Source of the DNA: an uncultured Alphaproteobacteria bacterium
Lineage (GTDB): Bacteria > Pseudomonadota > Alphaproteobacteria > CAAHEQ01 > UBA3637
Length of the DNA: 61,203 bases
Direction of reading: 5' to 3'
Assembly (NCBI GenBank): GCA_947627155.1
Contig: CANQUX010000010.1
Coordinates: forward strand, 1 to 61,203
The translations under genes and the position numbers were made by a program. The notes beneath the pieces were generated by a model. That model searched no databases and had not been told where the DNA came from. It saw only the letters and a program-made list of their open reading frames with translations. Every line of letters begins with the position of its first letter. Position 1 is the stretch's first letter. Positions 6,733-27,721 of this stretch are shown here, piece by piece.

Positions 6733-6761
6733 TTGACATCTTGATATATCTTTTATATAAT
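6733..6761 (+). promoter_or_regulatory. consensus sigma-70 promoter of the nadM-cofE-like-pnuC operon
   Basis: TTGACA at 6733-6738 and TATAAT at 6756-6761, both perfect consensus, are separated by 17 bases. Transcription should start near 6768, giving a leader of about 105 bases before the nadM start codon. Such a strong core promoter suggests control is exerted on the leader or by a repressor. Confidence 0.88.
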
Positions 6762-6767
6762 GGGACT

Positions 6768-6874
6768 GTTCGGGTGCTGGAGGGCTATCGGCACGAACAA
6801 AGAAGACTTGGCCGGTCATTGTTTCGGGGTTTCCCGTTTTGATGATTGTGCCTTTCACCAAGAAAGGTTTTTTT
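6768..6874 (+). promoter_or_regulatory. structured 5' leader of nadM, candidate cis-regulatory RNA
   Basis: The untranslated leader can fold. GTTCG (6768-6772) plus TGC pair with GCACGAAC about 20 bases later, leaving a GG bulge and a purine-rich loop. A second G/C-rich stretch (GGCCGG, then CGGGG/CCCG) lies before the ribosome-binding site. The site itself is AAGAAAGG followed by seven T before the ATG. I recognise no known riboswitch class. The context (NadM adenylyltransferase and PnuC) makes an NAD-type ligand a reasonable guess only. Confidence 0.45.
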
Positions 6875-7405
6875 ATGTTCAAATTTAAACATGGTTTTTG
6901 CATTCTTCGCTGTCAGCCTTTTCATATCGGACACGATCGCCTGATTAAAAAAATGATGGAAGAATGCGAATTCGGAACCGTTTTAATCGGCTCCGCGCAA
7001 GAAAGCGGTACGGAAAATAATCCCTTGCCTTATTTCATTCGTAAAAAAATGATTCAAAACGTTTGGCGCAAAAGTGAAGCTTATCCGCGCCTTCGCATTG
7101 AACCCGTTAAAGATTCCCAGTTAATTCCGTGGAACGTTAACGTGATTGAAACAATCCGAAAAGCACAGCCGGATTTGCCGCAACCCGATATTATGTATGT
7201 CGGGCACGAAAAAGAGTATCTTTTTTTCAAAAACAATGTACCGAATGTGGGCGTTTGCTCGCGCACAACACAAGAGTTTCCTTTTCTTTCCGGAAATATG
7301 GTGCGTGATATGATCATGCTCCGTGATGAAAGATATAAACAGTTTGTTCATCCTGAAAATATTGAGTTAATTGAAAAAAACTTTTATGAGGATGAAACAA
7401 TGTAG
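6875..7405 (+). CDS. nadM: NadM-like nicotinamide-nucleotide adenylyltransferase
   Basis: A 176-residue nucleotidyltransferase of the NadM type, expected to join NMN (or a related mononucleotide) to AMP from ATP to give NAD. The N-terminal RCQPFHIGH carries the HxGH nucleotide-binding motif, and LSGNMVRDMI near residue 145 matches the family's second ISxTxxR-like motif, with N where T is usual. I start at 6875 because the AAGAAAGG box is correctly placed there; earlier in-frame starts would lie in the leader. It is the first gene of the operon and is separated from the next by a terminator-like hairpin and a second fold. The pairing with PnuC supports salvage of a pyridine riboside or nucleotide. 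The exact substrate cannot be read from sequence. Confidence 0.78.
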   Translation: MFKFKHGFCILRCQPFHIGHDRLIKKMMEECEFGTVLIGSAQESGTENNPLPYFIRKKMIQNVWRKSEAYPRLRIEPVKDSQLIPWNVNVIETIRKAQPDLPQPDIMYVGHEKEYLFFKNNVPNVGVCSRTTQEFPFLSGNMVRDMIMLRDERYKQFVHPENIELIEKNFYEDETM

Positions 7406-7427
7406 AAAAAGCTAGGGTTAGCTTTTT
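7406..7427 (+). terminator. hairpin directly after nadM, terminator or attenuator
   Basis: AAAAAGCTA (7406-7414) and TAGCTTTTT (7419-7427) form a perfect 9-bp stem with a GGGT loop, ending in a T run. It begins at the base after the nadM stop. As the operon seems to continue, it probably causes partial termination, raising nadM over the later genes. Confidence 0.6.
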
Positions 7428-7431
7428 CATT

Positions 7432-7465
7432 GATTTGGGTCCTGTAGGGACAGTCGGGACAAATC
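7432..7465 (+). promoter_or_regulatory. foldable intergenic element before the cofE-like gene
   Basis: GATTTG (7432-7437) pairs with CAAATC (7460-7465), enclosing GTCC (7439-7442) paired with GGAC (7448-7451) over a TGTAG loop. It sits between the hairpin after nadM and the AAGGAG box of the next gene. It may be a small regulatory RNA fold or a processing site. No known family is recognised. Confidence 0.4.
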
Positions 7466-7496
7466 AATTATCCACCTACTGTCAAGGAGAAAAAAT

Positions 7497-8687
7497 ATGA
7501 TAAATTCCAATCAAAAACGTTTTGTCGGGACTTCTGTTTACGGTGTGAGAATGCCGATTATTTCAGAGGGCGCCGATATTGTTAATATAATTACCGATAC
7601 CGTTTTAAAGGCCACGCAAACAACTTACCAGCCTTTAACGTTAAATAATCGGGATATTGTTGCCGTTACCGAATCATTTTTGGCACGGGCGCAAGGCAAT
7701 TATGTCACACTGGATGATATTGCCCGCGATGTTTCAAAAAAATTTCCGACGGGAGATGTTGCCGTCGCTTTCCCGATTTTATCCCGCAACAGATTTTCCA
7801 AAATTTTGGAGGGCATTTCACGAGGTGTGAAAGGAAAAGTTTATGTCTGCCTTTCTTATCCGACCGATGAAGTCGGCAATGCCATTATGGACGAAGAAGA
7901 ATTGTTTAATTCGGATATTAATCCGTTAAGCGATGTTTTAACCAAGAAAAAATTTCGGGAAAAATTCGGTGTTTTTCATCATCCGATTACGGGAACGGAT
8001 CATATTCAAATGTATGAAGAAACCGCGCCGAATATTGAAGTTATTTTATTGAATAATCCGGTTGATATTTTGAAATATACCAAGCAGGTTATTGTGGCCA
8101 GCATTCACATTCGCAACCGTCATAAGAAAATTTTGGAAAAGAACGGTGCAAATGTTATGACACTGCAAGATATTTGCAACACACCCGCTCAAGGAAGGGG
8201 CTGGAGCGAATACGGCGTTTTGGGTTCTAACTTTTCCGATGAAGATCGGCTGAAACTCTTCCCGCGTGAAGCAACGGATTTTTGCAAAAAACTGCAAAAA
8301 AGTCTTTTTGCAAAAACAGGCAAGCACTTGGAAGTAATGGTTTACGGAGACGGCGGATTTAAATGCCCGAAAACAAAAATTTGGGAATTTGCCGATCCGG
8401 TTGTTTCGCCGGGCTATACCGACGGTTTAAAGGGCATGCCTAATGAAATTAAAATCAAAGTTGTTGCCGACAGTAACAAAGCCAATCCCGAAGAAGCCAT
8501 TCAAGCGGCCATTGCCGAAAAAAACAACGGCTATACCGACTATGCACTGGGAACAACTCCGCGGCAAATAACCGATTTACTCGGTTCGCTGTGTGATTTA
8601 ACCAGTGGTTCCGGCGATAAGGGAACACCGGTGATTGTTATTAAAGGATACTTTGATAATTACACAACCGAAGCGCCGACCGAATAA
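7497..8687 (+). CDS. CofE-like protein, coenzyme F420-0:L-glutamate ligase family
   Basis: A 396-residue protein of the F420-0:gamma-glutamyl ligase family. Seen: the N-terminal GVRMPIISEGADIVNII and the DIVAVTESFLARAQGN segment matching the family's 'pi-x-pGDDL' and 'DVLVVTEKvvs-a-G' regions, and later the GDGGFKCPKTKIWEFADP stretch. True CofE adds glutamate to the phosphate-linked lactyl side chain of F420-0 using GTP. The window shows no other F420 genes, and this protein is longer than archaeal CofE (about 250). In this operon it more likely forms an amide bond on a different phosphorylated or nucleotide substrate; that is inference. A good AAGGAG precedes the ATG. The next gene starts about 11 bases on. 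Confidence 0.68.
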   Translation: MINSNQKRFVGTSVYGVRMPIISEGADIVNIITDTVLKATQTTYQPLTLNNRDIVAVTESFLARAQGNYVTLDDIARDVSKKFPTGDVAVAFPILSRNRFSKILEGISRGVKGKVYVCLSYPTDEVGNAIMDEEELFNSDINPLSDVLTKKKFREKFGVFHHPITGTDHIQMYEETAPNIEVILLNNPVDILKYTKQVIVASIHIRNRHKKILEKNGANVMTLQDICNTPAQGRGWSEYGVLGSNFSDEDRLKLFPREATDFCKKLQKSLFAKTGKHLEVMVYGDGGFKCPKTKIWEFADPVVSPGYTDGLKGMPNEIKIKVVADSNKANPEEAIQAAIAEKNNGYTDYALGTTPRQITDLLGSLCDLTSGSGDKGTPVIVIKGYFDNYTTEAPTE

Positions 8688-8698
8688 CGGAACGTTTG

Positions 8699-9232
8699 AT
8701 GAATTTTAAATTTAAAGAACGTTTCAGGCGTATTGTTTATACGTGCCGCCATAAAGTTGCGTATTTAAGGGTGGAAAAACAGCTTTTCGGCAAAAACACC
8801 ATGCGCGGGTATTTCCATGATATTGATAAGATATTGCTTTATCTTGCCTTGTGGATTGAACCTGATCAAGTTCAGAAAATTCACCGCAAGCACAGCAAAC
8901 ATCATGTTAAAAATCAGCTTTTCAAAAAGAGAGAAGATTTGATTGACACAATCATTGATTGGGAATGCGCGCGCCTGACAAAGCCGGATAAGCCCCTAAA
9001 CGCTTACGAAACTTTAATGCGATTTTATCCCGAATATCAGGAAACTTATCTTCCGATTATTCGCTCGCTTTTACCCGCGGAAATTCCCGAAACAAAGGAA
9101 CAGGCCGCTTCCGGTATCAGCCGGGAAAAATTGCAGGAAATGCGCATTGAGGCAACGAAAGTGCAACCTTATCGATTGCCTCAAACGCGGCGGACGAAAC
9201 AGAATCAAAAACAAAATTTCAGACAGGAGTAA
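8699..9232 (+). CDS. DUF5662-like protein with His/Asp metal-site pattern
   Basis: A 177-residue soluble, basic protein. It resembles the DUF5662 family: KVAYLRVEKQ near the start, then HDIDK around residue 40 and HRKHSKHH around residue 62. That H-D...H..H.HH arrangement resembles HD-type metal sites. The last ~30 residues are polar and probably disordered. The ATG at 8699 is preferred to the TTG one codon earlier. It lies between the cofE-like gene and pnuC with 2 bases to pnuC, whose ribosome-binding site overlaps its end. Function unknown; a phosphohydrolase role is a guess from the residue pattern. Confidence 0.55.
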   Translation: MNFKFKERFRRIVYTCRHKVAYLRVEKQLFGKNTMRGYFHDIDKILLYLALWIEPDQVQKIHRKHSKHHVKNQLFKKREDLIDTIIDWECARLTKPDKPLNAYETLMRFYPEYQETYLPIIRSLLPAEIPETKEQAASGISREKLQEMRIEATKVQPYRLPQTRRTKQNQKQNFRQE

Positions 9233-9234
9233 AT

Positions 9235-9792
9235 ATGTTAATTTTAGAGCTTTCGGCAACGGTTCTCGGACTGTTGCAAGGGTTACTTGTGCTTCTCAAC
9301 AAGCGCAGCAACTGGATTTTTTACATTGCCCAGATGATTTGTCTGATTAGCTTTTCGTTGCTTAATCGTCTGTTTGGTGATGCGGTGAATAACAGCATTT
9401 ATCTGGTCATGGGAATTGCGGGATTTATGATGTGGAAACGCGGCGTCACCCGTCAAATCACGGTGTGCAGCACAAATGAACGCCTGCTTTACATCGGGTT
9501 TATCGGGCTTGGAACGCTTATCGTGAGCGCTGTTTTACGTCTGACTGCCGACCCCCTCCCCTTAACAGATGCTTTTACAACCGTTTCTTCGTTAACGGCA
9601 ACTTATTACATGGTTCGCCGCAAAACAGATACATGGCTGATTTGGTTTGTGAATGACATTTTTTATGTTTTTCAATACGGCAGACTTGAAAATCCGGCTT
9701 ATTCGCTGATGGCGCTTAACGTTATTTGGACGGTTATGGCCGTTATTTCTTATTGGAATTGGAACAAAATTTTGAAAGGATACGAAAAATGA
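9235..9792 (+). CDS. pnuC: PnuC-family nicotinamide riboside-type transporter
   Basis: A 185-residue inner-membrane protein with about seven hydrophobic segments, the usual size and layout of PnuC facilitators, which import nicotinamide riboside or other vitamin-type ribosides. Typical features are KRSNWIFYIAQM near the N-terminus and DTWLIWFVNDIFYV followed by an aromatic-rich segment in the C-terminal half (family W-x-x-W and N-D residues). CAGGAG gives a good ribosome-binding site. The stop overlaps the next start as ATGA, so translation is probably coupled to the deoxyribosyltransferase-like gene. With NadM upstream, nicotinamide riboside is the obvious candidate substrate. A riboside kinase, needed to make NMN, is not seen here. 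Confidence 0.85.
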   Translation: MLILELSATVLGLLQGLLVLLNKRSNWIFYIAQMICLISFSLLNRLFGDAVNNSIYLVMGIAGFMMWKRGVTRQITVCSTNERLLYIGFIGLGTLIVSAVLRLTADPLPLTDAFTTVSSLTATYYMVRRKTDTWLIWFVNDIFYVFQYGRLENPAYSLMALNVIWTVMAVISYWNWNKILKGYEK

Positions 9793-10301
9793 AAAAAGTT
9801 TATTTCGCAGGCAAATTTAACAAACTCCCGAATAAAAAACTCCCCTTGGCACAAAGACTTGTCAATGATTTCAGAACAAAACTGTTGGGGGCGCCCGAAA
9901 GGCTTGTTTATGCCAAAGAAAACCCGATTATTTATCATCGGTTTGTTTATACGGGACCTTTTTACAGCGAACAAGCCTCCAACGGTGACTATACGTCCAC
10001 CGATTGTGAAACCGTTCTGCGGGCAGAAGCGGAGGCCATTTCAAAAAGTGATATCTATTTGGTGGTTTTCGGTGATCAATTTTCGGTCGGTTCGGTTGTG
10101 GAATTAGGTTGGGCATTGGCTCAAAATAAAGAAATCATCATTCTTTATCGCGAAGAAAGTTCCGTCTATGCCATTCGGTCGGAATATTGGTTTGCCATTG
10201 CCGATGCTTTAAGCAAAAGCACCAAAGTCAAACTGTTTCCTTATCGGCGCAAAAACGTTCCCCTTTCTCTTATCAACAAAGCTTTATCGGAGGTTATGTA
10301 A
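9789..10301 (+). CDS. nucleoside 2-deoxyribosyltransferase-like protein
   Basis: A 170-residue cytosolic protein of the nucleoside 2-deoxyribosyltransferase/N-glycosidase fold. Seen: N-terminal KKVYFAGKF (substrate-binding Gly-rich start), SDIYLVVFGD in the middle, and GSVVELGWALAQNKEIIILY with the glutamate expected to form the glycosyl intermediate (VVELG). Family members cleave or exchange N-glycosidic bonds of nucleosides or nucleotides. Next to PnuC and NadM this could cleave a pyridine riboside or nucleotide. Start is set by the ATGA overlap with pnuC. The stop is one base before the radical SAM gene. Confidence 0.75.
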   Translation: MKKVYFAGKFNKLPNKKLPLAQRLVNDFRTKLLGAPERLVYAKENPIIYHRFVYTGPFYSEQASNGDYTSTDCETVLRAEAEAISKSDIYLVVFGDQFSVGSVVELGWALAQNKEIIILYREESSVYAIRSEYWFAIADALSKSTKVKLFPYRRKNVPLSLINKALSEVM

Positions 10302-10302
10302 T

Positions 10303-11124
10303 ATGAAATACAAAGAATTCGTTCTGACTTTATCATCTTTTAACTGCAACAAAAATTGCCCGTACTGCACGGCTAAAATTACACGCTGGCCCATTGTTGA
10401 CGATCAAATTCACCTTTTGGAACGGCAGCTCTTATTCTTAAAAGAAAAAGGCATTACTTTTCGTTATTTTGTTTTCAGCGGAAACGGCGAGCCGTCACTT
10501 CATTCGTATGAAACAATTCAAAAAGTGTGCAAGGCTTTAAAAAATGTGAATATTTTTGATGAAAAACGCTTTCAATCATCGGGAAACATTTTCTTTGAAC
10601 CGGAGAAATTAAAGCTTATTAAAGATGATTTTGTCGTTGAAATTACCCGGGTTGCTTTTCATCCGGAAGAAGATATGAAAACGTTGGGTTATAAGCAAAA
10701 TTATTTGGAATCGCCTTTGTTTCGCAAAGCAACCGTACGCTTGAATTATGTGTTAATGAAAAACAAAAAATTTGAAGAGTATTTAACCGATATTAAGCGC
10801 TATATCGATACCTATCCCAACATCGGCACCGTCAGCCTGAAAACATTGAATCTCAACACGCGGAACGATTGCCTTGACAATCCGCATTCTCAATGGATTA
10901 TGGCACATGCCCTCACGAAAAAAGATTCGGATGATATTGTTCGATATATGAGCGAACACGCCGAATTTCAACGTAAAGATGAAAAGTTTTTCGATCGATA
11001 TGAATGGATATATGCCGGAAAACCCATCACGTTTTATGTTAAAAAACTGGATTACGGGCTTTCCAATGTCATTTATTACGGCGGAAAACTGGTGAATTAT
11101 CATCTGCAACCGCTTCATTTTTAA
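10303..11124 (+). CDS. radical SAM protein
   Basis: A 273-residue radical SAM enzyme. The iron-sulfur cluster motif is CNKNCPYC (C15, C19, C22) and is followed by FSGNGEPSLH (GGEP-like SAM-binding motif, near residue 64). No C-terminal extra cluster is evident: the rest is cysteine-poor, so a SPASM-type peptide modifier is unlikely. It is small, like activases and organic-radical tailoring enzymes. It follows the deoxyribosyltransferase gene by a single base and uses the GGAGG inside that gene's end as ribosome-binding site, so it is clearly part of the operon. The substrate is unknown. Confidence 0.78.
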   Translation: MKYKEFVLTLSSFNCNKNCPYCTAKITRWPIVDDQIHLLERQLLFLKEKGITFRYFVFSGNGEPSLHSYETIQKVCKALKNVNIFDEKRFQSSGNIFFEPEKLKLIKDDFVVEITRVAFHPEEDMKTLGYKQNYLESPLFRKATVRLNYVLMKNKKFEEYLTDIKRYIDTYPNIGTVSLKTLNLNTRNDCLDNPHSQWIMAHALTKKDSDDIVRYMSEHAEFQRKDEKFFDRYEWIYAGKPITFYVKKLDYGLSNVIYYGGKLVNYHLQPLHF

Positions 11125-11147
11125 GTTTTCAAACGAAAGGATTTTAC

Positions 11148-12254
11148 ATGATAAAAAATCTGTTGATAATTATGGTCGTGTTATGCGCTCTTCATGCCCG
11201 TGCGGCTGACTTATTTGAACGCTATAATCAGCAAAAAAACAAATGGGTCGAAACTTACGGCATAGATTTCGGGCTTGATACCACTTTAAGTTGGCAACAA
11301 GTTGCGTCACACGGCAAAAAAACGCTTTTCAGAACATTTTATACGCCCTATTTCAATGCCCGCTTGTTTGAAAACGGACAATTTCATTTTTTAACAAATT
11401 TCGTGCGTTTTTATAATCAAACGGCAGCCGAAGCTTCGGCCAAAGCCGGCGTTGCAAATATGATAAACACCTATGATGCAAATTATAATGAGCTTTTGGC
11501 ACTTTATTATACGCATCAACTGGGAAATTTTGAATTGGGCTTGGGACAAATTCCCATTTGCTATTTTGACGGCGTCACCGCTTCCGATTTGCAACGGCAA
11601 TATTTTTTAAACAATGCCATTGCTCAAAACGGAACGTTTACTTATCCTTCAAGCGGTTTGGGCGGTTATGTTTCCGCGCAGATAACACCTGATGTCAAGT
11701 TCAGTTTAGGCGCCATCGATGCCGCCAATCCCACGGCACACGGCGTGCACGGCAAAAACTTGAAAGACGGGAAGTTTTCAACTTTTGCCGCTTTTCAGTA
11801 TCAGCCGATTATAAACGGCTATCAAGGATCATATAGTTTGCTTGTTTATGATAAACCGTCGGTTCAACGGGCACCTGTTAAAAGTCAGGGTGTTTCGGTT
11901 TACTTGGCGCAAGACGTAAGCAAGCAACACAGTGTTTTTTTCCGGTTTGATGCATCAAGCGGAGATTACAGCCTTTTGAAACATTCTTATGCGCTGGGTC
12001 TGCTTTGGAATGATCCGTTAAAACGCGCCCGAAACGATCAATTCGCGCTGGCTTATACGTTGAATAAAGTGAATAAAAACGCCGTTGATACAAAAACTTA
12101 TCATGCTTATGAACAAACGGTTGAAACTTATTATGACTATCAGCTTTATTCAAATATTTCCTTGCGTCCCGATGTGCAATTTTACGTCAATCCGGCGTTT
12201 CGGAAAAAAAGCACTGCCACGGCGTTTACGTTCAGCCTTTATTTTAAAATCTGA
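11148..12254 (+). CDS. outer-membrane beta-barrel, porin-like
   Basis: 368 residues with a signal peptide (LLIIMVVLCALHARA, cleavage before ADLF) and alternating-residue strands throughout. It ends in LYFKI, similar to the aromatic-terminated last strand recognised by BAM. It resembles sugar-type porins (OprB-like), but no specific family signature is certain. Gene order suggests it brings the substrate across the outer membrane for PnuC to carry across the inner one. AAAGGA precedes the ATG. It is the last gene of the operon and is followed by a strong terminator. Confidence 0.65.
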   Translation: MIKNLLIIMVVLCALHARAADLFERYNQQKNKWVETYGIDFGLDTTLSWQQVASHGKKTLFRTFYTPYFNARLFENGQFHFLTNFVRFYNQTAAEASAKAGVANMINTYDANYNELLALYYTHQLGNFELGLGQIPICYFDGVTASDLQRQYFLNNAIAQNGTFTYPSSGLGGYVSAQITPDVKFSLGAIDAANPTAHGVHGKNLKDGKFSTFAAFQYQPIINGYQGSYSLLVYDKPSVQRAPVKSQGVSVYLAQDVSKQHSVFFRFDASSGDYSLLKHSYALGLLWNDPLKRARNDQFALAYTLNKVNKNAVDTKTYHAYEQTVETYYDYQLYSNISLRPDVQFYVNPAFRKKSTATAFTFSLYFKI

Positions 12255-12310: not shown

Positions 12311-12360
12311 AGAGGAAGTCGGTAACCGTTGTATATCAAGGTTATTTTACTTCCTCTTTT
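12311..12360. terminator. bidirectional terminator between the porin and the pilin-like gene
   Basis: AGAGGAAGT (12311-12319) pairs perfectly with ACTTCCTCT (12349-12357), with an inner GGTAACC/GGTTA stem and a T run after it. It closes the operon on the plus strand and lies against the 3' end of the minus-strand gene at 12363. Confidence 0.75.
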
Positions 12361-12362
12361 AT

Positions 12363-13793
12363 TCATTCCGCAACACATAAGGCATTATGAATTGATGCAT
12401 TACGTGCACAAGGTTCCAAGCGTTTATCATGCCATAAGCCGTTGTGTATATATGCATGATACGGTGCGCCACAAGCAGAATCACCGTCGATAGTGCTTGT
12501 CCATACGGTAATGGTCCATGTCGGAGGCGTTTCGTTATACAATTTATGCCGTAAATCACTGTTTTCACAATTGAGATCATCCAGTGTACACCCCAATTCC
12601 TCTATACTTATCAAATGGTAAGGCTTATTTTCTTGTTTCGCAATCGCTTTACAAAAGTTATCGGCCCCCCACCAATTCAGCGTCTCTGTCGAGCTGAAAT
12701 AGGTGCGACCGTTTATCGTTTTTTTATTATAATTTCCCGCTATTTTTCTACAGTGCGTATTATCACTTGCCGAGATTACCGGGGCTCCGTTTTGGCAGGC
12801 GCTTATCGTTATACTGCAATATTCATCGGTTGCACAATTCTCATTTGATGTACATCCGCAAAATTCGCCGTTCCACGGTTGATCTGCAGGGCACTCCACG
12901 CATTCATTGCCATTCCACAAAGGTTTATTCGGATCAAGTTCATAGCAGCTTTTGCAGGTATGGCTTGTCTCCTCACATTGCGGCCTCTCCTCGTTTTTGC
13001 AATCGCTATACGTTAAGCATTCCACACATGTATCGTTATACCATATGGGCGTTTCCGGCGGACACGATTCGCAATTACCTTGTTCAACATTACAACGTGG
13101 TTTGCTAGTTGGACAATCCGTATTTTCTATACATTCCACACATTCATTATTTTCTACATCACAAATAGGTCTTGAAGTGTCACAATCTTCATCTTTGGCG
13201 CACCAGCCTTCGGGGCGCTCCGAATCGTAATTGCCGTTCACATCTTCTGCATCGAATTGAATGTAAAATTCATTATTTTCATCACTTGAACATAAATCAT
13301 CTTCTTCATAGGGCTGTTTATTGATTTCTATATACATTAAAGCGTCCATGGCGGCAACAAGCGTTGTAAGCGGTTTACAAACACCCTTTGAAATGTTCCC
13401 CACGGCAATATAATAAGCATCTGCTTCGCGGCAATTATAAAGTTCGTTTTTACTCTCTTTATTACCTCTGATGATGCAATCATAATCAACGGGATAACGA
13501 TCATATTGTGTTGATAAATGCCCGCTGTAATCTTTATTTTCGGGTGTATCATCATAAGGATCCCCGAGCAATAATTCTTCATTCCCCAAAGCATATTTAA
13601 CCTTTAAATCGTTGCGCATGAGATTGATTTCATTAGCGATTTGATTGGCCTGATAATAATTCATGGCTAATTTATAGCCCACGATTCCACCGATTGATAA
13701 AATAGCAATAATGGCGAGCACCCCGAGCATTTCAATCATGCTCCGGCCGCTTTGCGATTGATTTTCAAATTGTTTTTTAAGTTGCTTTGTCAT
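12363..13793 (-). CDS. pilin-like adhesin 1: prepilin N-terminus, Cys-rich stalk, lectin-like head
   Basis: 476 residues. The N-terminus is a type IV prepilin signal: basic leader ending QSQSG (G16), then RSMIEML with Glu at mature position 5 and a hydrophobic helix; Arg at mature position 1 is unusual. Residues ~45-190 are the pilin-type domain, with a 'DRYPVDYDC...GVCKPLTTL' disulfide region shared with the other family members. Residues ~190-330 are short Cys repeats (CVECxxNxDC type). The C-terminal ~130 residues (LNWWGADNFCKA ... WTITVWTST ... HNALC) look like a C-type-lectin-like fold. It ends in VAE rather than CE, and its last codons do not show the NNY pattern of adhesins 2 and 5. 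ATG 13793 is set by GGGAG at 7-base spacing. Confidence 0.78.
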   Translation of the reverse strand: MTKQLKKQFENQSQSGRSMIEMLGVLAIIAILSIGGIVGYKLAMNYYQANQIANEINLMRNDLKVKYALGNEELLLGDPYDDTPENKDYSGHLSTQYDRYPVDYDCIIRGNKESKNELYNCREADAYYIAVGNISKGVCKPLTTLVAAMDALMYIEINKQPYEEDDLCSSDENNEFYIQFDAEDVNGNYDSERPEGWCAKDEDCDTSRPICDVENNECVECIENTDCPTSKPRCNVEQGNCESCPPETPIWYNDTCVECLTYSDCKNEERPQCEETSHTCKSCYELDPNKPLWNGNECVECPADQPWNGEFCGCTSNENCATDEYCSITISACQNGAPVISASDNTHCRKIAGNYNKKTINGRTYFSSTETLNWWGADNFCKAIAKQENKPYHLISIEELGCTLDDLNCENSDLRHKLYNETPPTWTITVWTSTIDGDSACGAPYHAYIHNGLWHDKRLEPCARNASIHNALCVAE

Positions 13794-13820
13794 TTTCCGA
13801 CTCCCTTTCATTATACGAAC

Positions 13821-13850
13821 AGTATACAATTAAACGTACCTTTAATGCAA
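13821..13850 (-). promoter_or_regulatory. promoter of pilin-like adhesin 1
   Basis: Read on the minus strand: TTGCAT (13850-13845), 18 bases, TATACT (13826-13821). The -35 box lies inside the terminal inverted repeat of the 166-bp element, the -10 just outside it. The same arrangement recurs at all pilin-like genes. Confidence 0.7.
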
Positions 13851-14453: not shown

Positions 14454-14478
14454 GTTTGTATTGAAAGGGAGCATGAAC

Positions 14479-17400
14479 ATGACAATGCAACACAGAAAAA
14501 AACAATTAAAACAGGCAGAAACACAATCCCAAAGCGGGCGGAGTATGGTTGAAATACTGTGCGTTTTGGCTATTATTGCTATTTTATCGATAAGCGGAAT
14601 AATCGGATATGAATTAGCAATGAACCATTATCAGGCGAATCAAATTGCGCATGAAGTTAATTTGATGCGCACTGATGCGCAGGTGAAAATAGCGCAAGGA
14701 AATGATATATTAACATTGGGAGAGCCTTATGATGACGGGAAATTGAATTTTAACGGATATCCGACAGACTTCGGATTTGCAGATCCGATTCCGAATGTTG
14801 AAAATCCGAGTGATATTGAAGAGGAATATTATATAAATGTGTCAGCGGTACCGCAAGGGGTGTGTAAGCCGCTTGCAACCTTGTTAAACGGTTTGGACGG
14901 GAAAATCTCGTTAAAGGTGAACGATACCGATTTTGAGAATAATATAGATCTGTGTAATGAGAAAGAAAATAATTTAACGGTGGCATTTGCGGCAGAAGAC
15001 ATAAAAGGTGAAAGCTTTGCGGAGGGCTGGTGCGAAAATGATGACGATTGCGGCGGAGGATATTGCCAAAATCATATCTGTGTAGAATGCAAGGAAAGCA
15101 ATGATTGCGGAGATTTCGAAGTTTGTGATCAACAAGAGGGCATCTGTACCACCGATTGCAGCAAAGGAGGATGTCAGGAAGATTTAAAATGCGATTCGCA
15201 AACAAACAGATGTGTCGAATGTCGAAACACAGATGATTGCAGCGGATTAGCTTGTAAAAACAATCAATGTGCCACTTGTTCAAGCGAGTCGGATTGCGAA
15301 GGAAAACACTGTACGGCAGTCGGCACCTGTGTTAAATGTACGGGAAAGCTCTCGAATTGGGACGCAACTAAAAAGGAATGTGTTGAATGTAACGAAAGTC
15401 ATCCGTGTCCGAACGGACAAGTCTGTCAAAACGGTGTTTGTGAAAAATGCACAGCCGATTCGCAGTGCGGCTCGGGCAATCATTGCAAAACCGATGGCAG
15501 TTGTGTTACTTGCAGCGGCTCAACACCGTATTGGAACGCCACCACAAAACAATGCGTTTCATGTACGCAAAACAGCCACTGTTCGGACACAACGCCGATT
15601 TGTACAGCCGGTACTTGTGATGCATGCAGCGGCGATTCGCAGTGCGGCTCGGGCAATCATTGCAAAGCCGATGGCAGTTGCGTCACTTGCAGCGGTTCAA
15701 CACCTTATTGGAACGCAACGACGAAACAATGCGTTTCATGTACGCAAAACAGCCATTGTTCCGGCACAACACCCTATTGTAACACAAGTTCCGGTACTTG
15801 TGAAGCATGCAGCGGCGATTCGCAGTGCGGCTCGGGCAAACATTGCAAAACCGATGGTAGTTGTGTCACTTGCAGCGGCTCAACACCGTATTGGAACGCA
15901 ACGACGAAACAATGTGTCGCATGCACGGGGAATAGCCACTGTTCAGGGACAGCGCCCTATTGTGACACAAGCTCCGGTACTTGCGGCAAATGTACAGCTG
16001 ATTCGCAGTGCGGTACAAATAAACATTGCAAAACCGATGGCAGTTGCGTTACTTGTAGCGGCTCAACACCGTATTGGAACGCAACGACGAAACAATGTGT
16101 CGCATGCACGGGGAACAGCCATTGTTCCGGCACAACACCCTATTGTAACACAAGTTCCGGTACTTGTGAAAAATGCACAGCCGATTCGCAATGCGGCACA
16201 GGCAACCATTGCAAAACCGATGGCAGTTGCGTTACTTGCAGCGGCTCAACACCGTATTGGAACGCAACGACGAAACAATGTGTCGCATGCACGGAAAACA
16301 GTCACTGTTCCGGCACAACGCCGATTTGTAACACAAGCTCCGGTGTTTGTGGCAAATGCACAGCCGATTCGCAATGCGGCACAGGCAAACATTGCAAAGC
16401 CGATGGCAGTTGCGTCACTTGCAGCGGCTCAACACCTTATTGGAACGCAACGACAAAACAATGCGTTTCATGTACGGAAAACAGTCACTGTTCCGGCACA
16501 ACGCCGATTTGTAACACAAGCTCCGGTGTTTGCGGCAAATGTACAGCCGATTCGCAATGCGGCACAGGCAAACATTGCAAAGCCGATGGCAGTTGCGTCA
16601 CTTGCAGCGGCACAACACCGTATTGGAACGCCAGTACGAAACAATGTGAAGCTTGCAGCGGCTCAACACCGTATTGGAATGCAACGAAGAAACAATGTGT
16701 CGCATGTACGGGGAACAGCCATTGTTCCGGCACAACGCCGTATTGTAACACAAGTACCAATGTTTGTGAAAAATGTACTACCGATTCGCAGTGCGGTACG
16801 GGTAAACATTGCAAAACCGATGGCAGCTGCGTTACTTGCAGCGGTTCAACGCCTTATTGGAACGCAACGACAAAACAATGCGTACAATGCACAGGGAATA
16901 GTCATTGTTCAGGGACAACGCCCTATTGTAACGGTTCTGTCTGTAAAACATGTGTATCGGTAAGTAGCAGTACGCCTTACTGGAACACCAGTACTAAAAA
17001 GTGCGAAGCGTGTCCGGCAAGCACACCTTATTGGAACGGCAGTGCTTGCAAAACATGTGTATCAGTAAATAGCAGTACGCCTTATTGGAACACCGGTACC
17101 AAAAAGTGTGAAGCTTGTCCGACAAGCACACCTTATTGGAATGGTTCTGCCTGTAAAACATGTGTATCGGTAAGCAGCAGTACGCCTTACTGGAACACCA
17201 GTACTAAAAAGTGCGAAGCCTGCCCGGCAAGCACACCTTATTGGAACGGCAGTGCTTGCAAAACATGTGTATCAGTAAATAGCAGTACGCCTTATTGGAA
17301 CACCAGTACTAAAAAGTGCGAAGCTTGTCCGGCAAGTACGCCTTATTGGAATGGTTCTGCCTGTAAAACATGTGTATCGGTAAACAGCAGTGCGCCTTAC

Positions 17401-18693
17401 TGGAACACCAGTACCAAAAAGTGCGAAGCATGTCCGGCAAGTACGCCTTATTGGAACGGCAGTGCTTGCAAAACATGTGTATCAGTAAATAGCAGTACGC
17501 CTTATTGGAACACCAGTACTAAAAAGTGCGAAGCGTGTCCGGCAAGCACACCCTATTGGAACGGCAGTGCCTGTAAAACGTGCGCATCGGTAAACAGCAG
17601 TGCGCCTTATTGGAATACAAGTACCAAAAAGTGTGAAGCCTGCCCGGCAAGCACACCTTATTGGAACGGCAGCGCCTGTAAAACGTGTGCATCGGTAAAC
17701 AGCAGTGCGCCTTATTGGAACACCGGTACCAAAAAGTGCGAAGCATGTCCGGCAAACACACCTTATTGGAACGGCAGTGCTTGCAAAACGTGCGTATCGG
17801 TAAACAGCAGCGCGCCTTACTGGAATACAAGTACCAAAAAGTGCGAAGCATGTCCGGCAAGTACGCCTTATTGGAACGGTTCTGTCTGTAAAACGTGTGC
17901 ATCGGTTAATAGTTCTAAACCTGTATGGAATGCGACAAAAAAACAATGTGTACAATGCACTGGGAACAGTCATTGTTCGGGGACAACACCGATTTGTAAC
18001 ACAAGCACCGGTGTTTGCGGCAAATGCACAGCCGATTCGCAATGCGGCACAGGCAAACATTGCGAAACCGATGGCAGTTGCGCCACTTGCAGTGGTACAA
18101 CGCACTGGAACACCAGTACCAAAAAGTGCGAAGCCTGCCCGGAAGGCAGCACTTGGAATAGTACAACCGGCGAATGCAAATGTGACGGTAATAAAGTCTG
18201 GAAAGAGTCCAAACAAGCCTGTGTAGAGCTTGTCGGGGAATGCGAGAGCAATGCCGATTGCGGGGAGGGAGAGTATTGTTACATGTATTTTGGGTTTCAA
18301 TGTTATGACGGCCAGGAATTTAAACCTTATGAATTTGGTGGAGCGTATAGCAGCAAGAGTGAATGCAGGAATGCGCGTGGCGATGCAAAAGAAGGAAAAA
18401 CAACCCACTTTGTTGGTAGCAAAAGTGAGATGACATGGTGGAGTGCGGGGCGGTTCTGCAAGGCGTTAGGAATGAAGCAAGCAACGCGGGCAAGCATCGG
18501 ATGTGGTGATGTGCCGTATGGAGAGTATTGTCAAAGCGAGACAAGAAATAATTTGTACGATGATTTTGGTAGCGAGTATGTTTGGATGTCCGATATGTAC
18601 GATTCTTCCTGCTACGCGTACAGCGTTCTCCTCAATTACGGTTACGTCAACTACTACGGTCGCAACCCCTACCACTACGCCTTATGTGAGTGA
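14479..18693 (+). CDS. giant pilin-like adhesin 2 with Cys-rich repeat stalk and variable lectin-like head
   Basis: 1404 residues. Prepilin signal: basic leader to G20, then RSMVEIL with Glu+5. A pilin-type domain (~45-190) is followed by a huge Cys-rich stalk. From 15445 there are eight tandem ~60-residue units (CTADSQCGTGKHC...GSTPYWNATTKQC), then nine 35-residue units (KTCVSVNSSTPYWNTSTKKC...), then a final unit and a CEGNKVW-type module. The head (~1250-1404) is lectin-like: MTWWSAGRFCKALG, YVWMSDMYDSSCYA and the YALCE end. Its last ~40 codons are NNC/NNT-rich, as in DGR targets. The first in-frame starts (14461 TTG, 14473 ATG) are rejected because ATG 14479 has the family's GGGAG plus 7 spacing. 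It is presumably displayed on a pilus or pseudopilus tip. Confidence 0.8.
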   Translation: MTMQHRKKQLKQAETQSQSGRSMVEILCVLAIIAILSISGIIGYELAMNHYQANQIAHEVNLMRTDAQVKIAQGNDILTLGEPYDDGKLNFNGYPTDFGFADPIPNVENPSDIEEEYYINVSAVPQGVCKPLATLLNGLDGKISLKVNDTDFENNIDLCNEKENNLTVAFAAEDIKGESFAEGWCENDDDCGGGYCQNHICVECKESNDCGDFEVCDQQEGICTTDCSKGGCQEDLKCDSQTNRCVECRNTDDCSGLACKNNQCATCSSESDCEGKHCTAVGTCVKCTGKLSNWDATKKECVECNESHPCPNGQVCQNGVCEKCTADSQCGSGNHCKTDGSCVTCSGSTPYWNATTKQCVSCTQNSHCSDTTPICTAGTCDACSGDSQCGSGNHCKADGSCVTCSGSTPYWNATTKQCVSCTQNSHCSGTTPYCNTSSGTCEACSGDSQCGSGKHCKTDGSCVTCSGSTPYWNATTKQCVACTGNSHCSGTAPYCDTSSGTCGKCTADSQCGTNKHCKTDGSCVTCSGSTPYWNATTKQCVACTGNSHCSGTTPYCNTSSGTCEKCTADSQCGTGNHCKTDGSCVTCSGSTPYWNATTKQCVACTENSHCSGTTPICNTSSGVCGKCTADSQCGTGKHCKADGSCVTCSGSTPYWNATTKQCVSCTENSHCSGTTPICNTSSGVCGKCTADSQCGTGKHCKADGSCVTCSGTTPYWNASTKQCEACSGSTPYWNATKKQCVACTGNSHCSGTTPYCNTSTNVCEKCTTDSQCGTGKHCKTDGSCVTCSGSTPYWNATTKQCVQCTGNSHCSGTTPYCNGSVCKTCVSVSSSTPYWNTSTKKCEACPASTPYWNGSACKTCVSVNSSTPYWNTGTKKCEACPTSTPYWNGSACKTCVSVSSSTPYWNTSTKKCEACPASTPYWNGSACKTCVSVNSSTPYWNTSTKKCEACPASTPYWNGSACKTCVSVNSSAPYWNTSTKKCEACPASTPYWNGSACKTCVSVNSSTPYWNTSTKKCEACPASTPYWNGSACKTCASVNSSAPYWNTSTKKCEACPASTPYWNGSACKTCASVNSSAPYWNTGTKKCEACPANTPYWNGSACKTCVSVNSSAPYWNTSTKKCEACPASTPYWNGSVCKTCASVNSSKPVWNATKKQCVQCTGNSHCSGTTPICNTSTGVCGKCTADSQCGTGKHCETDGSCATCSGTTHWNTSTKKCEACPEGSTWNSTTGECKCDGNKVWKESKQACVELVGECESNADCGEGEYCYMYFGFQCYDGQEFKPYEFGGAYSSKSECRNARGDAKEGKTTHFVGSKSEMTWWSAGRFCKALGMKQATRASIGCGDVPYGEYCQSETRNNLYDDFGSEYVWMSDMYDSSCYAYSVLLNYGYVNYYGRNPYHYALCE
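15445..16941 (+). repeat. eight tandem ~180-base Cys-rich coding repeats
   Basis: Units of 59-61 residues starting at CTADSQCG or CSGDSQCG, each with about eight cysteines; the seventh carries an internal extra PYWNA module. Nucleotide identity between units is high, so unit number probably varies between strains by recombination. Confidence 0.85.
16942..17886 (+). repeat. nine tandem 105-base coding repeats
   Basis: Repeat starts fall exactly every 105 bases (16942, 17047, 17152, 17257, 17362, 17467, 17572, 17677, 17782), with a partial tenth at 17887. Each encodes 35 residues with two PYWN motifs and four cysteines. Differences are mostly synonymous and alternate between units, as expected from recent expansion of pairs of units. 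Confidence 0.9.
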
Positions 18694-23575: not shown

Positions 23576-25210
23576 TTATTCCTCTCTTTCCACGCACAAA
23601 TGATCTTTAAACTCTTTATTTAAAATCTCGGCGTATTCCTGCATGGTTGTTTCGTTCGATAAAACTTGATCCAAATCATAGGTTTTTGTTGCTGCATCAA
23701 ATGTACGCCCTTCAACGGAAATGTTATAAATAATCGATTGCGGACATTTTTGTTTCAAAGCATTAAAATAGGGATTATCTGTCATATCTACATCATAAAA
23801 AACAACAATAATCAATTTTTCTTGACCGGTACAAATATTTTGTGTTATATGTTTTAAAGGGTTTATGAAAAAATTACAGGGACCTGCCGGAGGCCCTTCT
23901 AACTCAATTTGAAGCGCGGCTTTAATTTCGGCCGCCGAATGTTTGCCGTATGATAAAGGCATTGGAACTTTATCATACTGACATACCCCCGTACCACAAC
24001 CTCCTTCATCATAACATCCCGATAAATAAACGGCTGCTTTAAGTTTATCGGGAATGTTCAGCTTTGATATCACTTTTTGAATTTTTTGTGCATTTTCTTT
24101 ATATAAATCTCTTGAATATTGGTTAGTATCATGATTTTTCCACCCTAAACTGCTGCTCTGATCCACCATTAAAACAATATCAACTTCCTGTTCACAGTAA
24201 GGCAAACAAACGGCTTTGCCGGAGCTGGTTTCTGATTTCTTATAGTCATTAGGACAAACGCATTCACTGCCGTTCCACGTCATGAGCGGATCATCGCAAC
24301 AAGCACCGCTCGCTGTATCACAATTTGGCTTGTTTGCATCGGGGCATTCATCATCAACAGCGCACCCGACACAGGTTGCCGTTTCTTCATCACATATCGG
24401 GCGCGGATTGACACAATCCGAATCTTTTGTGCATTCACCGCAAGTGTGATTTTTTCGACATATATTTGAGTCACAATCCGCATTTTCCGTACACTCCACA
24501 CACATATTGCTCTCTTTATCGCAAACTTGCGATTCTTCACAATCGTCATTTTTGGCACACCAACCTTCAGGACGATTCGAATCATAATTACCGTTCACTT
24601 CTTCCGCATCAAACTGAATATAAAATTCATTGGCTTCATCACTTGAACATAAATCGTTTTCTTTATAAACTTCTTTGTTAATTTCCATATACATTAAACC
24701 GTCCATGGCGCTGACAAGTGTTGTAAGCGGTTTACAAACGCCTTTCGAAACATTCCCGACTTTAATATAATAAGCATCTGTTTCGCGGCAGTTATAAAAT
24801 TCTGCTTTGTCTTTGCGGATGCAATCATAATCAACGGGATAACGATCGTATTGTGTTGATAAATGCCCGCTGTAATGTTCATTTTCGGGTGTATCATCAT
24901 AAGGATCCCCCAATATCAATTCTTCATTCCCCAAAGCGTATTTAACCTTTAAATCGTTGCGCATGAGATTGATTTCATTTGCTACTTGGTCAGCTTGATA
25001 ATAATTCATGGCTAATTTATAGCCCACGATTCCGCCGATTGATAAAATAGCAATAATCGCCAACACGCCGAGCATTTCAATCATTGAACGTCCGCTTTGT
25101 GAGTGTGTTTTGATTCTATTTTGCCTTTCTTCTTCCTCGCGCATGATTTGTTCTTTATTTCTTTGCATTTCTGCGTAGTTTAGCTGATTTTTTCTTGCAT
25201 ATTTCGTCAT
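23576..25210 (-). CDS. pilin-like adhesin 3 with C-terminal VWA domain
   Basis: 544 residues. The leader is unusually long and charged (EMQRNKEQIMREEEERQNR) before SQSG (G40), then RSMIEML. The pilin-type domain is nearly identical to those of adhesins 1 and 4 (KYALGNEELILGDPYDDTPE). A Cys-rich stalk follows. The C-terminal ~206 residues are a von Willebrand factor A-like domain with MIDAS motif DQSSS (D350) and GWK; it also has several cysteines. VWA heads bind protein ligands through a metal ion, as in pilus-tip proteins. The start at 25210 has the family's GGGAG spacing; the longer frame would run through the promoter. Confidence 0.78.
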   Translation of the reverse strand: MTKYARKNQLNYAEMQRNKEQIMREEEERQNRIKTHSQSGRSMIEMLGVLAIIAILSIGGIVGYKLAMNYYQADQVANEINLMRNDLKVKYALGNEELILGDPYDDTPENEHYSGHLSTQYDRYPVDYDCIRKDKAEFYNCRETDAYYIKVGNVSKGVCKPLTTLVSAMDGLMYMEINKEVYKENDLCSSDEANEFYIQFDAEEVNGNYDSNRPEGWCAKNDDCEESQVCDKESNMCVECTENADCDSNICRKNHTCGECTKDSDCVNPRPICDEETATCVGCAVDDECPDANKPNCDTASGACCDDPLMTWNGSECVCPNDYKKSETSSGKAVCLPYCEQEVDIVLMVDQSSSLGWKNHDTNQYSRDLYKENAQKIQKVISKLNIPDKLKAAVYLSGCYDEGGCGTGVCQYDKVPMPLSYGKHSAAEIKAALQIELEGPPAGPCNFFINPLKHITQNICTGQEKLIIVVFYDVDMTDNPYFNALKQKCPQSIIYNISVEGRTFDAATKTYDLDQVLSNETTMQEYAEILNKEFKDHLCVEREE

Positions 25211-25236
25211 TTTTGACTCCCTTTCACTATACGAAT

Positions 25237-25265
25237 AGCATAAAATAAACGTACCTTTAATGCAA
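25237..25265 (-). promoter_or_regulatory. promoter of pilin-like adhesin 3
   Basis: Minus strand: TTGCAT (25265-25260), 17 bases, TATGCT (25242-25237). The -35 lies in the terminal repeat of element copy 3. Confidence 0.68.
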
Positions 25266-25408
25266 CGCGGATTCGGGGGCAAAATTACCCTTAAATTTTG
25301 GTGAAATTGCCTTGTTATAACCGTTTGATATTGCATTTGTTTTCCCCTTAATTAAATTTTTTTTGAAAAAATCAAAAAAAAGTGTTGCAAAAATCGTACG
25401 TTTAATTG
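25242..25408 (-). repeat. copy 3 of the ~166-bp promoter element
   Basis: Near end (25266-25242) reads GTTGCATTAAAGGTACGTTT then ATTTT. The far end (25384-25408) is GTTGCAAAAATCGTACGTTT then AATTG. The interior is closest to copy 1 (shared GTTATAAC and AATTAA stretches). Confidence 0.7.
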
Positions 25409-25620: not shown

Positions 25621-27156
25621 TCATTTGCATAAGGCATAGCGCTGACCGCCATCAATATGACCATTGCTGCGATTATTGTTGCTTATACCCCCTACATCAA
25701 GATTTAACATATACACGGCACAGGAATTAGGACCCGGATCTGTACCCCATGGATCTGCCAACCAATACCAGTTATTTCCTTGATCCTCTTTTCCGTTTTC
25801 CGCTTTTCTTATTGATTTAACAACATGACTCAATCCGTTTGTAGCAGAGCATATATCTTGTTTGGCATAACAATAACCAACCAGTTTTTTACTGAAACTA
25901 TGGCAACAATCCAAATCAGAAATTTTGACCATCTGCTTATTATGTGCCTCACAGAATCGTTGGGCACTCCACCAATTCATACCCTGACTTGACAGGATGT
26001 ATGAGCTGTTCGAGTCGTGATTTTGTGCCGTATACTCTGATTTCTTAACACATCGATGTATTACGCCGGCACAACTTCTTTCTTCTGTTATTGTGCCAAT
26101 ATAATAAGGAGCTTGATCAACCTCCCCACTGTCGCCGCATTCATAAGGTTGACATTCGCTTGTCAGACAGAATTCGCCTGATTCGCAATCATTATTACTT
26201 TTGCATCCGCAAAATTCACCGTTCCACGGCTGATCTTCAGGACACACGCACTCACTGCCGTTCCATGTCATGAACGGATCATCGCAACAAGCCCCGCTCA
26301 CTGTATCACAACTCGGTTTGTTTGCATCGGGGCATTCGGTATCATCAGCGCACCCGACACAGGTTGCCGCTTCTGTATCGCAAATCGGGCGCGGATTGAC
26401 ACAATCCGAATCTTTTGTGCATTCCCCGCAGGTATAATCGCCTCGACATACATTTGAGGCGCAATCAGCGTTTTTCATACACTCTACACATGTATTGTTT
26501 TCCTTATCGCAAACAGGGGTTGATAATCCTTCACAATCGTCATCTTTGGCACACCAACCTTCGGGGCGCCCCGAATCGTAGTTCCCGTTTACATCCGCTG
26601 CATCGAATTCAACATAAATTTCATTATTTTCATCACTGGTACATGAATCACCTTCTGTGTAGGAAATACCATTGATATCCATTTCCAAACGGCCGTCCAT
26701 GGCGGCAACAAGCGTTGTGAGGGGCTTACAAACACCTTTCGAAACATTCCCCACGACAATATAATAAGCATCTGCTTCGCGACAATTGTAAAGCTCATTT
26801 TTACTCTCTTTATTACCTCTGATGATGCAATCATAATCAACGGGATAACGGTCATATTGTGTTGATAAATGCCCGCTGTAATCTTTATTTTCGGGTGTAT
26901 CATCATAAGGATCTCCGAGTAACAATTCTTCATTTCCCAAAGCATATTTAACCTTTAAATCGTTGCGCATTAAGTTAATTTCATTGGCAATTTGATCGGC
27001 TTGATAGTAGTTCATGGCTAATTTATAGCCGACAATCCCGCCGATTGACAGAATGGCAATAATGGCCAACACCCCGAGCATTTCAATCATTGAACGGCCG
27101 CTTTGTGATTGAGTTTCAACTTGTTTTAATTGATTTTTTTTGAATTGTCTTGTCAT
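25621..27156 (-). CDS. pilin-like adhesin 4 with lectin-like head
   Basis: 511 residues. Prepilin signal to G20, then RSMIEML; the pilin-type domain is almost identical to adhesin 1. The Cys-rich stalk contains CVECMKNADC, CGECTKDSDC and CVGCADDTEC. The lectin-like head has MNWWSAQRFCEAHNKQM, NNWYWLADPW and an Asn/Gly-rich end ISNNNRSNGHIDGG before QRYALCK. The frame matches the variable heads of adhesins 2 and 5, but its codons there are mixed (GAT, GTA, ATA, CAG, GGC), not the NNC/NNT pattern. So it may be a non-diversified relative. After the stop, TGAGGTCGAC resembles the TGAGGCCAGC of adhesins 2 and 5. Start 27156 fits GGGAG spacing. Confidence 0.78.
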   Translation of the reverse strand: MTRQFKKNQLKQVETQSQSGRSMIEMLGVLAIIAILSIGGIVGYKLAMNYYQADQIANEINLMRNDLKVKYALGNEELLLGDPYDDTPENKDYSGHLSTQYDRYPVDYDCIIRGNKESKNELYNCREADAYYIVVGNVSKGVCKPLTTLVAAMDGRLEMDINGISYTEGDSCTSDENNEIYVEFDAADVNGNYDSGRPEGWCAKDDDCEGLSTPVCDKENNTCVECMKNADCASNVCRGDYTCGECTKDSDCVNPRPICDTEAATCVGCADDTECPDANKPSCDTVSGACCDDPFMTWNGSECVCPEDQPWNGEFCGCKSNNDCESGEFCLTSECQPYECGDSGEVDQAPYYIGTITEERSCAGVIHRCVKKSEYTAQNHDSNSSYILSSQGMNWWSAQRFCEAHNKQMVKISDLDCCHSFSKKLVGYCYAKQDICSATNGLSHVVKSIRKAENGKEDQGNNWYWLADPWGTDPGPNSCAVYMLNLDVGGISNNNRSNGHIDGGQRYALCK

Positions 27157-27183
27157 TTTCCGACTCCCTTTCATTATACGAAT

Positions 27184-27213
27184 AGTATACAATTAAACGT
27201 ACCTTTAATGCAA
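27184..27213 (-). promoter_or_regulatory. promoter of pilin-like adhesin 4
   Basis: Minus strand: TTGCAT (27213-27208), 18 bases, TATACT (27189-27184). Confidence 0.7.
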
Positions 27214-27691: not shown

Positions 27692-27696
27692 ATGCT
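27668..27696 (+). promoter_or_regulatory. promoter of pilin-like adhesin 5
   Basis: TTGCAT (27668-27673), 17 bases, TATGCT (27691-27696). Confidence 0.68.
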
Positions 27697-27721
27697 ATTT
27701 GCATTGAAAGGAAGTCGAAAA

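Follow-up and report, generated by a model that had tools for sequence, protein, structure and literature searches.

Haemophilus-type salvage of nicotinamide riboside uses the porin OmpP2, the transporter PnuC and NadR, and the Francisella-type route to nicotinamide adenine dinucleotide (NAD) employs a nicotinamide mononucleotide (NMN) synthetase together with NadM. PnuC-type transporters differ in their cargo, which may be nicotinamide riboside, thiamine, riboflavin or deoxynucleosides (PMC7749635), and the NAD+-II (pnuC motif) riboswitch, which has a pseudoknot at the ribosome site, is linked to pnuC and NAD (PMC7749635, PMC10085692). Here we describe a seven-gene operon, encoding NadM, a CofE-like protein, a DUF5662-like protein, PnuC, a nucleoside deoxyribosyltransferase-like (NDT-like) protein, a radical S-adenosylmethionine (SAM) protein and a porin, in a stretch of 61,203 nucleotides (the window) from an uncultured alphaproteobacterium (contig CANQUX010000010.1 of assembly GCA_947627155.1, here genome G000; compared loci and genomes are numbered with L and G). 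On balance we favour reading this locus as an operon for the salvage of pyridine nucleotides (NAD) in which two RNA leaders, probably related riboswitches, act in cis to control expression. This reading draws on features read directly from sequence, namely the gene families, the conservation of their order, the absence from this genome of those alternative NAD genes that were tested, and RNA structures that covary. Like the Haemophilus-type system the locus has a porin, PnuC, an NMN adenylyltransferase and no final NadE step, but no NadR kinase domain was found and an archaeal-type NadM, with CofE-like and DUF5662-like proteins, is present instead; it resembles the Francisella-type route in that NadM would complete NAD from NMN, whereas no NadE homologue and no source of nicotinate mononucleotide (NaMN) was found here. 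The operon would be new as a form of NAD salvage, riboswitches and NAD salvage themselves being known kinds.

The porin and PnuC would import nicotinamide riboside, which would become NMN in the cell, and NadM would adenylate this NMN to NAD+. Matches to NadE, NadD, NadC or the PncB/NadV family were absent from G000, which is 96% complete (NadA, NadB and further kinase families lay outside the NAD gene searches), and its sole NadM and sole PnuC are both encoded inside this operon. Given that NadE, NadC, NadD and the PncB/NadV family were not found, the entry point that suits NadM here would be amide-level NMN, and the source, a gut bacterium, appears to have lost the known routes to NAD. Genomes G027 (only 77% complete), G041 and G042 are similar to G000 in NAD gene content, the NadE-like matches in G041 and G042 having been rejected as they read as tRNA thiouridylase. 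Most of the 43 genomes of the window's family, several of them more than 95% complete, gave no NadE, NadD, NadC, NadM or PncB/NadV match, and since most other family genomes lack all these genes, reliance on external NAD or its precursors may be widespread in the family. A search for NAD import by an ATP/ADP-type translocase matched nowhere, controls included, and was uninformative. At three loci in relatives (L021, L023 and L024) a paralogue of the CofE-like gene lies head-on to a NadE-PncB-NadM-PncA cluster, with PnuC present in two of them; Pfam assignments back these neighbourhoods, and their repeated adjacency ties the CofE-like gene to pyridine nucleotides. Of the options that the initial annotation of this DNA had left standing, NAD salvage is the one favoured by genome content and gene context, and if it is correct, the source of NAD in reduced gut Alphaproteobacteria that have no recognised genes for its synthesis becomes a testable question.

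The CofE-like gene was found in 10 of the 43 family genomes, spread over two genera, and further carriers among gut Alphaproteobacteria were found by a scan of 84,980 species genomes. Conservation of the gene order, which had been put forward as a check on the operon, was borne out in many relatives: gut Alphaproteobacteria from two or more genera carry the order, either complete or in a shortened form. The full seven-gene order from nadM to the porin is present at L025, L026, L036 and L040, six genes are present at L015 and L017 (porin missing) and at L033 and L034 (radical SAM missing), and only nadM-cofE-DUF5662 is present at L016, L020 and L022. As shortened operons keep these three genes they are the core of the operon, followed by pnuC and the NDT gene, with the radical SAM and porin genes more often absent. 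L025 and L026 lie on contigs nearly identical to the window. The contig bearing L025 (CANQML010000018.1), whose CofE-like protein is 98% identical to that of the window, is filed as part of a Gastranaerophilales metagenome-assembled genome (MAG) and is probably misbinned alphaproteobacterial DNA.

Two structured RNA leaders were found in the operon, one before nadM (element B) and one between nadM and the cofE-like gene (element A; coordinates in Table 1). The initial annotation had pointed to a structured gap after nadM, which proved to be real and covarying, but this was all it saw, the nadM leader with its terminator-like hairpin having escaped notice. Element A is common to 14 distinct sequences and consists of a GG-bulge hairpin, P1, in whose loop one strand forms a pseudoknot with ACTGTC or ACTGCC immediately 5' of the Shine-Dalgarno sequence; including this pseudoknot, 98.4% of the cells are paired and 7 of 18 pairs are changed on both sides, a covariation score that was reached by none of 500 shuffles, and sliding the partners cut pairing to at most 43%. 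Its core has one match in the window, where none is expected by chance, and the hairpin that precedes it, right after nadM, keeps its structure while its sequence varies. Element B starts about where transcription is predicted to start (near 6768, from the promoter upstream). Across 14 leaders its P1 hairpin shows 93% pairing, and both partners have changed in 6 of the pairs (covariation score reached by 0 of 500 shuffles), and it has the same GG bulge as element A, a fifth inner pair that is mostly U-G and a loop of the form RAGGGCWAU. The GGCC in the loop of its P2 hairpin is able to pair with a GGCC at the base of the terminator-like hairpin, the helix of which is paired in all 14 leaders, with no double changes among them, and the 3' arm of which holds the nadM ribosome site. 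Because the helix between the P2 loop and the terminator base draws on bases that the terminator hairpin also uses, the two are mutually exclusive and the leader has an anti-terminator/terminator layout.

A second NadM, about 44% identical, likewise has an element-B-type leader before it at L146 (in a PncA-PncB-NadE operon), L040, L104 and L109. In these second-nadM leaders the P2 stems are GAG/CTC and AAC/GTT, the terminator base carries GGCTC or GCTC opposite the loop GAGCC, and the terminator itself reads CTCC..GGAG with T7 or T8 before the ATG. At L149 (G010:C1, about 42168-42760) nadM is broken by an internal stop, yet the element-B leader is kept, and so the operon was lost in G010. No Rfam family matched at gathering score in the window stretches or in the leaders of L027, L033, L034, L036 and L040. 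The search for leaders elsewhere covered the fetched loci and an additional stretch, about 0.4 Mb, of the window's own genome; it gave no convincing match in the Firmicutes and Archaea loci, the viral contigs or that additional stretch, and a literature search found no paper on a nadM riboswitch. Folding energy alone gave no signal for the leaders (z between -2.3 and +0.3) and so the case for them rests on covariation. A model of element A (R1) had the nadM leaders as its only extra matches in a 42-kb set (E 0.006, 0.035 and 0.15), which suggests that elements A and B are related.

Both elements are conserved, covarying structured leaders of the kind looked for in riboswitches, and each has a putative expression platform by a start codon, this being the terminator-like hairpin with T7 before the nadM ATG in one and the pseudoknot abutting the Shine-Dalgarno sequence in the other. 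Element A runs as far as the ribosome site that serves the cofE-like gene, an arrangement seen in translational pseudoknot riboswitches. The two leaders are probably riboswitches that switch the genes on and off, and, judged from the genes to which they are linked, the candidate ligand is NAD+, NMN or a relative. With ligand plentiful, expression of both units would fall, since element B would fold into the terminator-like hairpin that blocks the nadM ribosome site and element A into its pseudoknot beside that of the cofE-like gene; in the ON state the P2 loop GGCC would pair with the GGCC at the base of the terminator. Element A is like the NAD+-II riboswitch in having a pseudoknot at the ribosome site, but by the described topology it lacks the P1a stem-loop and has its pseudoknot strand in the P1 apical loop (PMC10085692), and it lies before the cofE-like gene and not directly before pnuC. 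As the topology differs from that of the NAD+-II riboswitch, the RNA elements are a candidate new class among riboswitches. If this is true, a riboswitch class tied to NAD supply is used twice in one operon, as a terminator-type switch before nadM and as a pseudoknot before the remaining genes.

The CofE-like protein belongs to the PF01996 family (166 bits against a cut-off of 25), and its predicted structure (predicted local distance difference test score, pLDDT, 86) matches CofE (2phn) with Z 15.4 over 186 residues aligned at 4.1 A. CofE itself, the F420-0:gamma-glutamyl ligase, is GTP-dependent and adds glutamates (PMC1971073). The window protein shares its fold but has 396 residues rather than about 250, carries a Rossmann-like domain inserted into the CofE fold at about residues 84-240, is far below the CofE equivalog cut-offs (49 bits against 274 for PRK13293 and 40 against 181 for TIGR01916) and has no other tested F420 gene with it. 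F420 synthesis by the operon, which the initial annotation had thought improbable, is unlikely because none of the 43 family genomes has CofD (controls were positive in 10 of 14), and it was rejected. The family is strongly conserved (mean column identity 62%), with proteins about 50% identical over their full length in Firmicutes, a spirochaete and Archaea; its best matches are F420 enzymes, yet no F420 gene was found beside the CofE-like gene, and the operon would give this family its first repeated functional context. Phosphate transfer from a nucleotide is characteristic of its family, and the CofE-like protein is tentatively put forward for the activating step, in which it would phosphorylate the riboside or amidate NaMN; either reaction would fill the pathway gap in G000. 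A wider and still doubtful proposal is that a new class of riboswitch for an NAD-type ligand (the "nadM motif") exists in two forms, elements A and B, and that the widespread CofE-like protein catalyses an undescribed salvage step, for example making NMN, in bacteria without NadE and PncB. Four loci outside the Alphaproteobacteria (L045, L047, L049 and L053) have the CofE-like gene near open reading frames (ORFs) reading as purine-synthesis enzymes, and at L080 it lies directly 3' of a nucleoside phosphorylase-family gene (Pfam PNP_UDP_1) and 5' of a Nudix-like ORF.

The seven genes are co-directional and tightly packed, with junctions in order of 91, 8, 2, -4 (ATGA), 1 and 23 bases; the tight spacing and the single consensus promoter of the initial annotation were both upheld, with all of its ORFs recovered at or near their proposed places, and its family guesses stand with the qualifications that NadM, the NDT-like protein and the radical SAM protein are remote members and that the DUF5662 link runs through orthologues only. 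NadM matches CTP_transf_like at 28.5 bits, above cut-off, with MJ0541 as best PDB match, and NCBIfam PRK01153 at 51 bits (E 9e-14) against a cut-off of 127, its nucleotidyltransferase motifs being conserved. PnuC is supported by NMN_transporter (PF04973, 120 bits), TIGR01528 (59.6 bits against a cut-off of 42.45) and a match to structure 4qtn (E 8e-8), and the porin matches OprB (PF04966, 76.5 bits) and an AaxA model (E 1.7e-41, far below that model's cut-off). The NDT-like protein is just under the cut-off of Nuc_deoxyrib_tr (PF05014, 27.2 bits against 28.8), and its nearest solved structure is the CMP N-glycosidase 4jen (profile E 1.5e-6); it has an invariant Glu in the conserved VEL motif and shares an Sp-G-x-x-x-E-x-x-W-A stretch with CMP N-glycosidase (MilB) and related nucleotide N-hydrolases, though it is only remotely similar to them. 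The radical SAM protein scores 23.7 bits with Radical_SAM, below cut-off, and its CNKNCPYC motif is invariant in 5 orthologues. The DUF5662-like protein, whose ORF has a TTG start at 8696 and an alternative ATG at 8699, has no Pfam match itself, 8 of 12 orthologues matching PF18907 weakly (best E 0.0024); it has conserved HD and HH motifs, its model (pLDDT 83) had no standout match among solved structures, which is uninformative either way, and a literature search found no paper on DUF5662. These last three proteins would act on related compounds, by putative reactions. Relatives of the DUF5662-like protein with 35-52% identity occur on phage contigs (L138-L141) without other operon genes.

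Table 1. Coordinates of genes and regulatory features of the operon in the window
Feature	Position	Strand	Basis
Sigma-70 type promoter, TTGACA-17-TATAAT	6733-6761	+	12/12 consensus match; predicted
Element B P1 hairpin with GG bulge, loop GAGGGCUAU, aptamer-like	6767-6799	+	Conserved in 14 leaders
Element B P2 hairpin, GACU-UGGCC-GGUC	6805-6817	+	Two compensated pairs, including second-nadM leaders
Terminator-like hairpin CCTTTC..GAAAGG with T7, right before nadM ATG	6851-6874	+	Terminator scan
Operon of seven genes	6875-12254	+	
NadM-like nicotinamide-nucleotide adenylyltransferase, 176 aa	6875-7405	+	Pfam CTP_transf_like above cut-off
Hairpin right after nadM	7405-7428	+	Terminator scan; folds in most relatives
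RNA element A	7429-7489	+	Covarying structure before cofE-like gene
Element A P1 with GG bulge	7429-7468	+	Covariation
Element A pseudoknot	7449-7454 with 7478-7483	+	One compensated pair; ACTGTC or ACTGCC partner strand
Shine-Dalgarno of cofE-like gene	7484-7489	+	Directly 3' of pseudoknot strand
CofE-like protein, 396 aa	7497-8687	+	F420_ligase match, 166 bits
DUF5662-like all-helical protein	8696-9232	+	Orthologues match PF18907 below its cut-off
PnuC-type transporter	9235-9792	+	PF04973 and TIGR01528 above cut-off
Nucleoside deoxyribosyltransferase / nucleotide N-glycosidase-like (NDT-like) protein	9789-10301	+	Remote profile matches
Radical SAM protein, single CxxxCxxC motif	10303-11124	+	Weak Radical_SAM match
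OprB-type porin	11148-12254	+	PF04966, 76.5 bits
Candidate operon terminator, AGAGGAAGT..ACTTCCTCT with T run	12311-12361	+	Perfect 9-nt inverted repeat, 29-nt loop; tentative

Several observations weigh against an NAD salvage operon under riboswitch control. A riboside kinase, which the initial annotation had suggested looking for, was sought among AAA_28 matches and there was no good candidate in G000 (further kinase families were not searched): its main AAA_28 match, tried as a NadR-type riboside kinase, reads as thymidylate kinase, and NadR-like AAA_28 matches in G001, G014, G029 and G036 were likewise rejected as NadR, the G014 protein being without the adenylyltransferase domain. CofE activates a carboxylate, and its chemistry as known calls for a carboxylate and not a hydroxyl substrate. 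Neither the operon partners nor NAD genes were found near the CofE-like gene outside the Alphaproteobacteria (in the Firmicutes and Archaea loci), G041, which has nadM-cofE-DUF5662, gave no PnuC match, and the genomes compared are incomplete MAGs in which absences may be gaps. On the RNA side, the element A pseudoknot helix has one compensated pair only, in two species, and a model of element B (R2) did not retrieve element A, so that the kinship of the two, which R1 supports in the other direction, is suggestive. It is possible, though we think it the lesser likelihood, that the RNA elements serve as protein-binding sites or RNA thermometers, or do no more than tune processing and translation, since the position of element A at a ribosome site and a terminator-like hairpin that holds another would also fit protein-controlled leaders; the near-invariant unpaired P1 loop bases, the alternative pairings around the terminator-like hairpin and the association with two different nadM operons fit ligand sensing better.

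The operon might instead make a modified dinucleotide cofactor, NadM adenylating a pyridine or other mononucleotide, the CofE-like protein adding an amino acid and the radical SAM enzyme tailoring the product. The CofE fold suggests amide ligation, radical SAM and N-glycosidase-like proteins are present, and the CofE-like gene also adjoins complete NAD routes and so may not be needed for NAD, but the radical SAM and NDT genes are absent from many operon copies, no enzyme is known that uses such a cofactor, and the tested genes imply that the genome needs this locus for NAD, making this explanation unlikely. Another role for the CofE-like protein, as a folate polyglutamylase, takes its appeal from the Chlamydia homologue CT611, which is in the same COG (COG1478) and complements E. 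coli folC (PMC1971073), and from the finding of FolC above cut-off in only 1 of the 43 family genomes. FolC is, however, equally absent from relatives without the CofE-like gene and canonical FolC is present in 31 of 49 carriers outside the Alphaproteobacteria, which led us to reject replacement of FolC by this gene; with NAD genes as operon neighbours besides, a folate role is very unlikely. Canonical folate polyglutamylation seems to have been lost across the window's family. Anti-phage defence or phage NAD reconstitution, both raised by the initial annotation, did not survive the PADLOC and viral-context surveys and now seem scarcely credible: phages do carry NadM and DUF5662-like relatives and the radical SAM core matches viperin models weakly, but that match covers the common core only, no PADLOC system was called, no second operon gene was present at any of 80 viral NadM loci, and the gene set is conserved across species like housekeeping genes.

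Several large pilin-like proteins are encoded 3' of the operon (12363-13829, 14461-18693, 23576-25336, 25621-27192 and 27692-29131). These have in common an N-terminal GRSMVEMLGVLAIIxxLSIGG and long cysteine-rich repeats, the largest being of 1410 residues with dozens of near-identical repeats.

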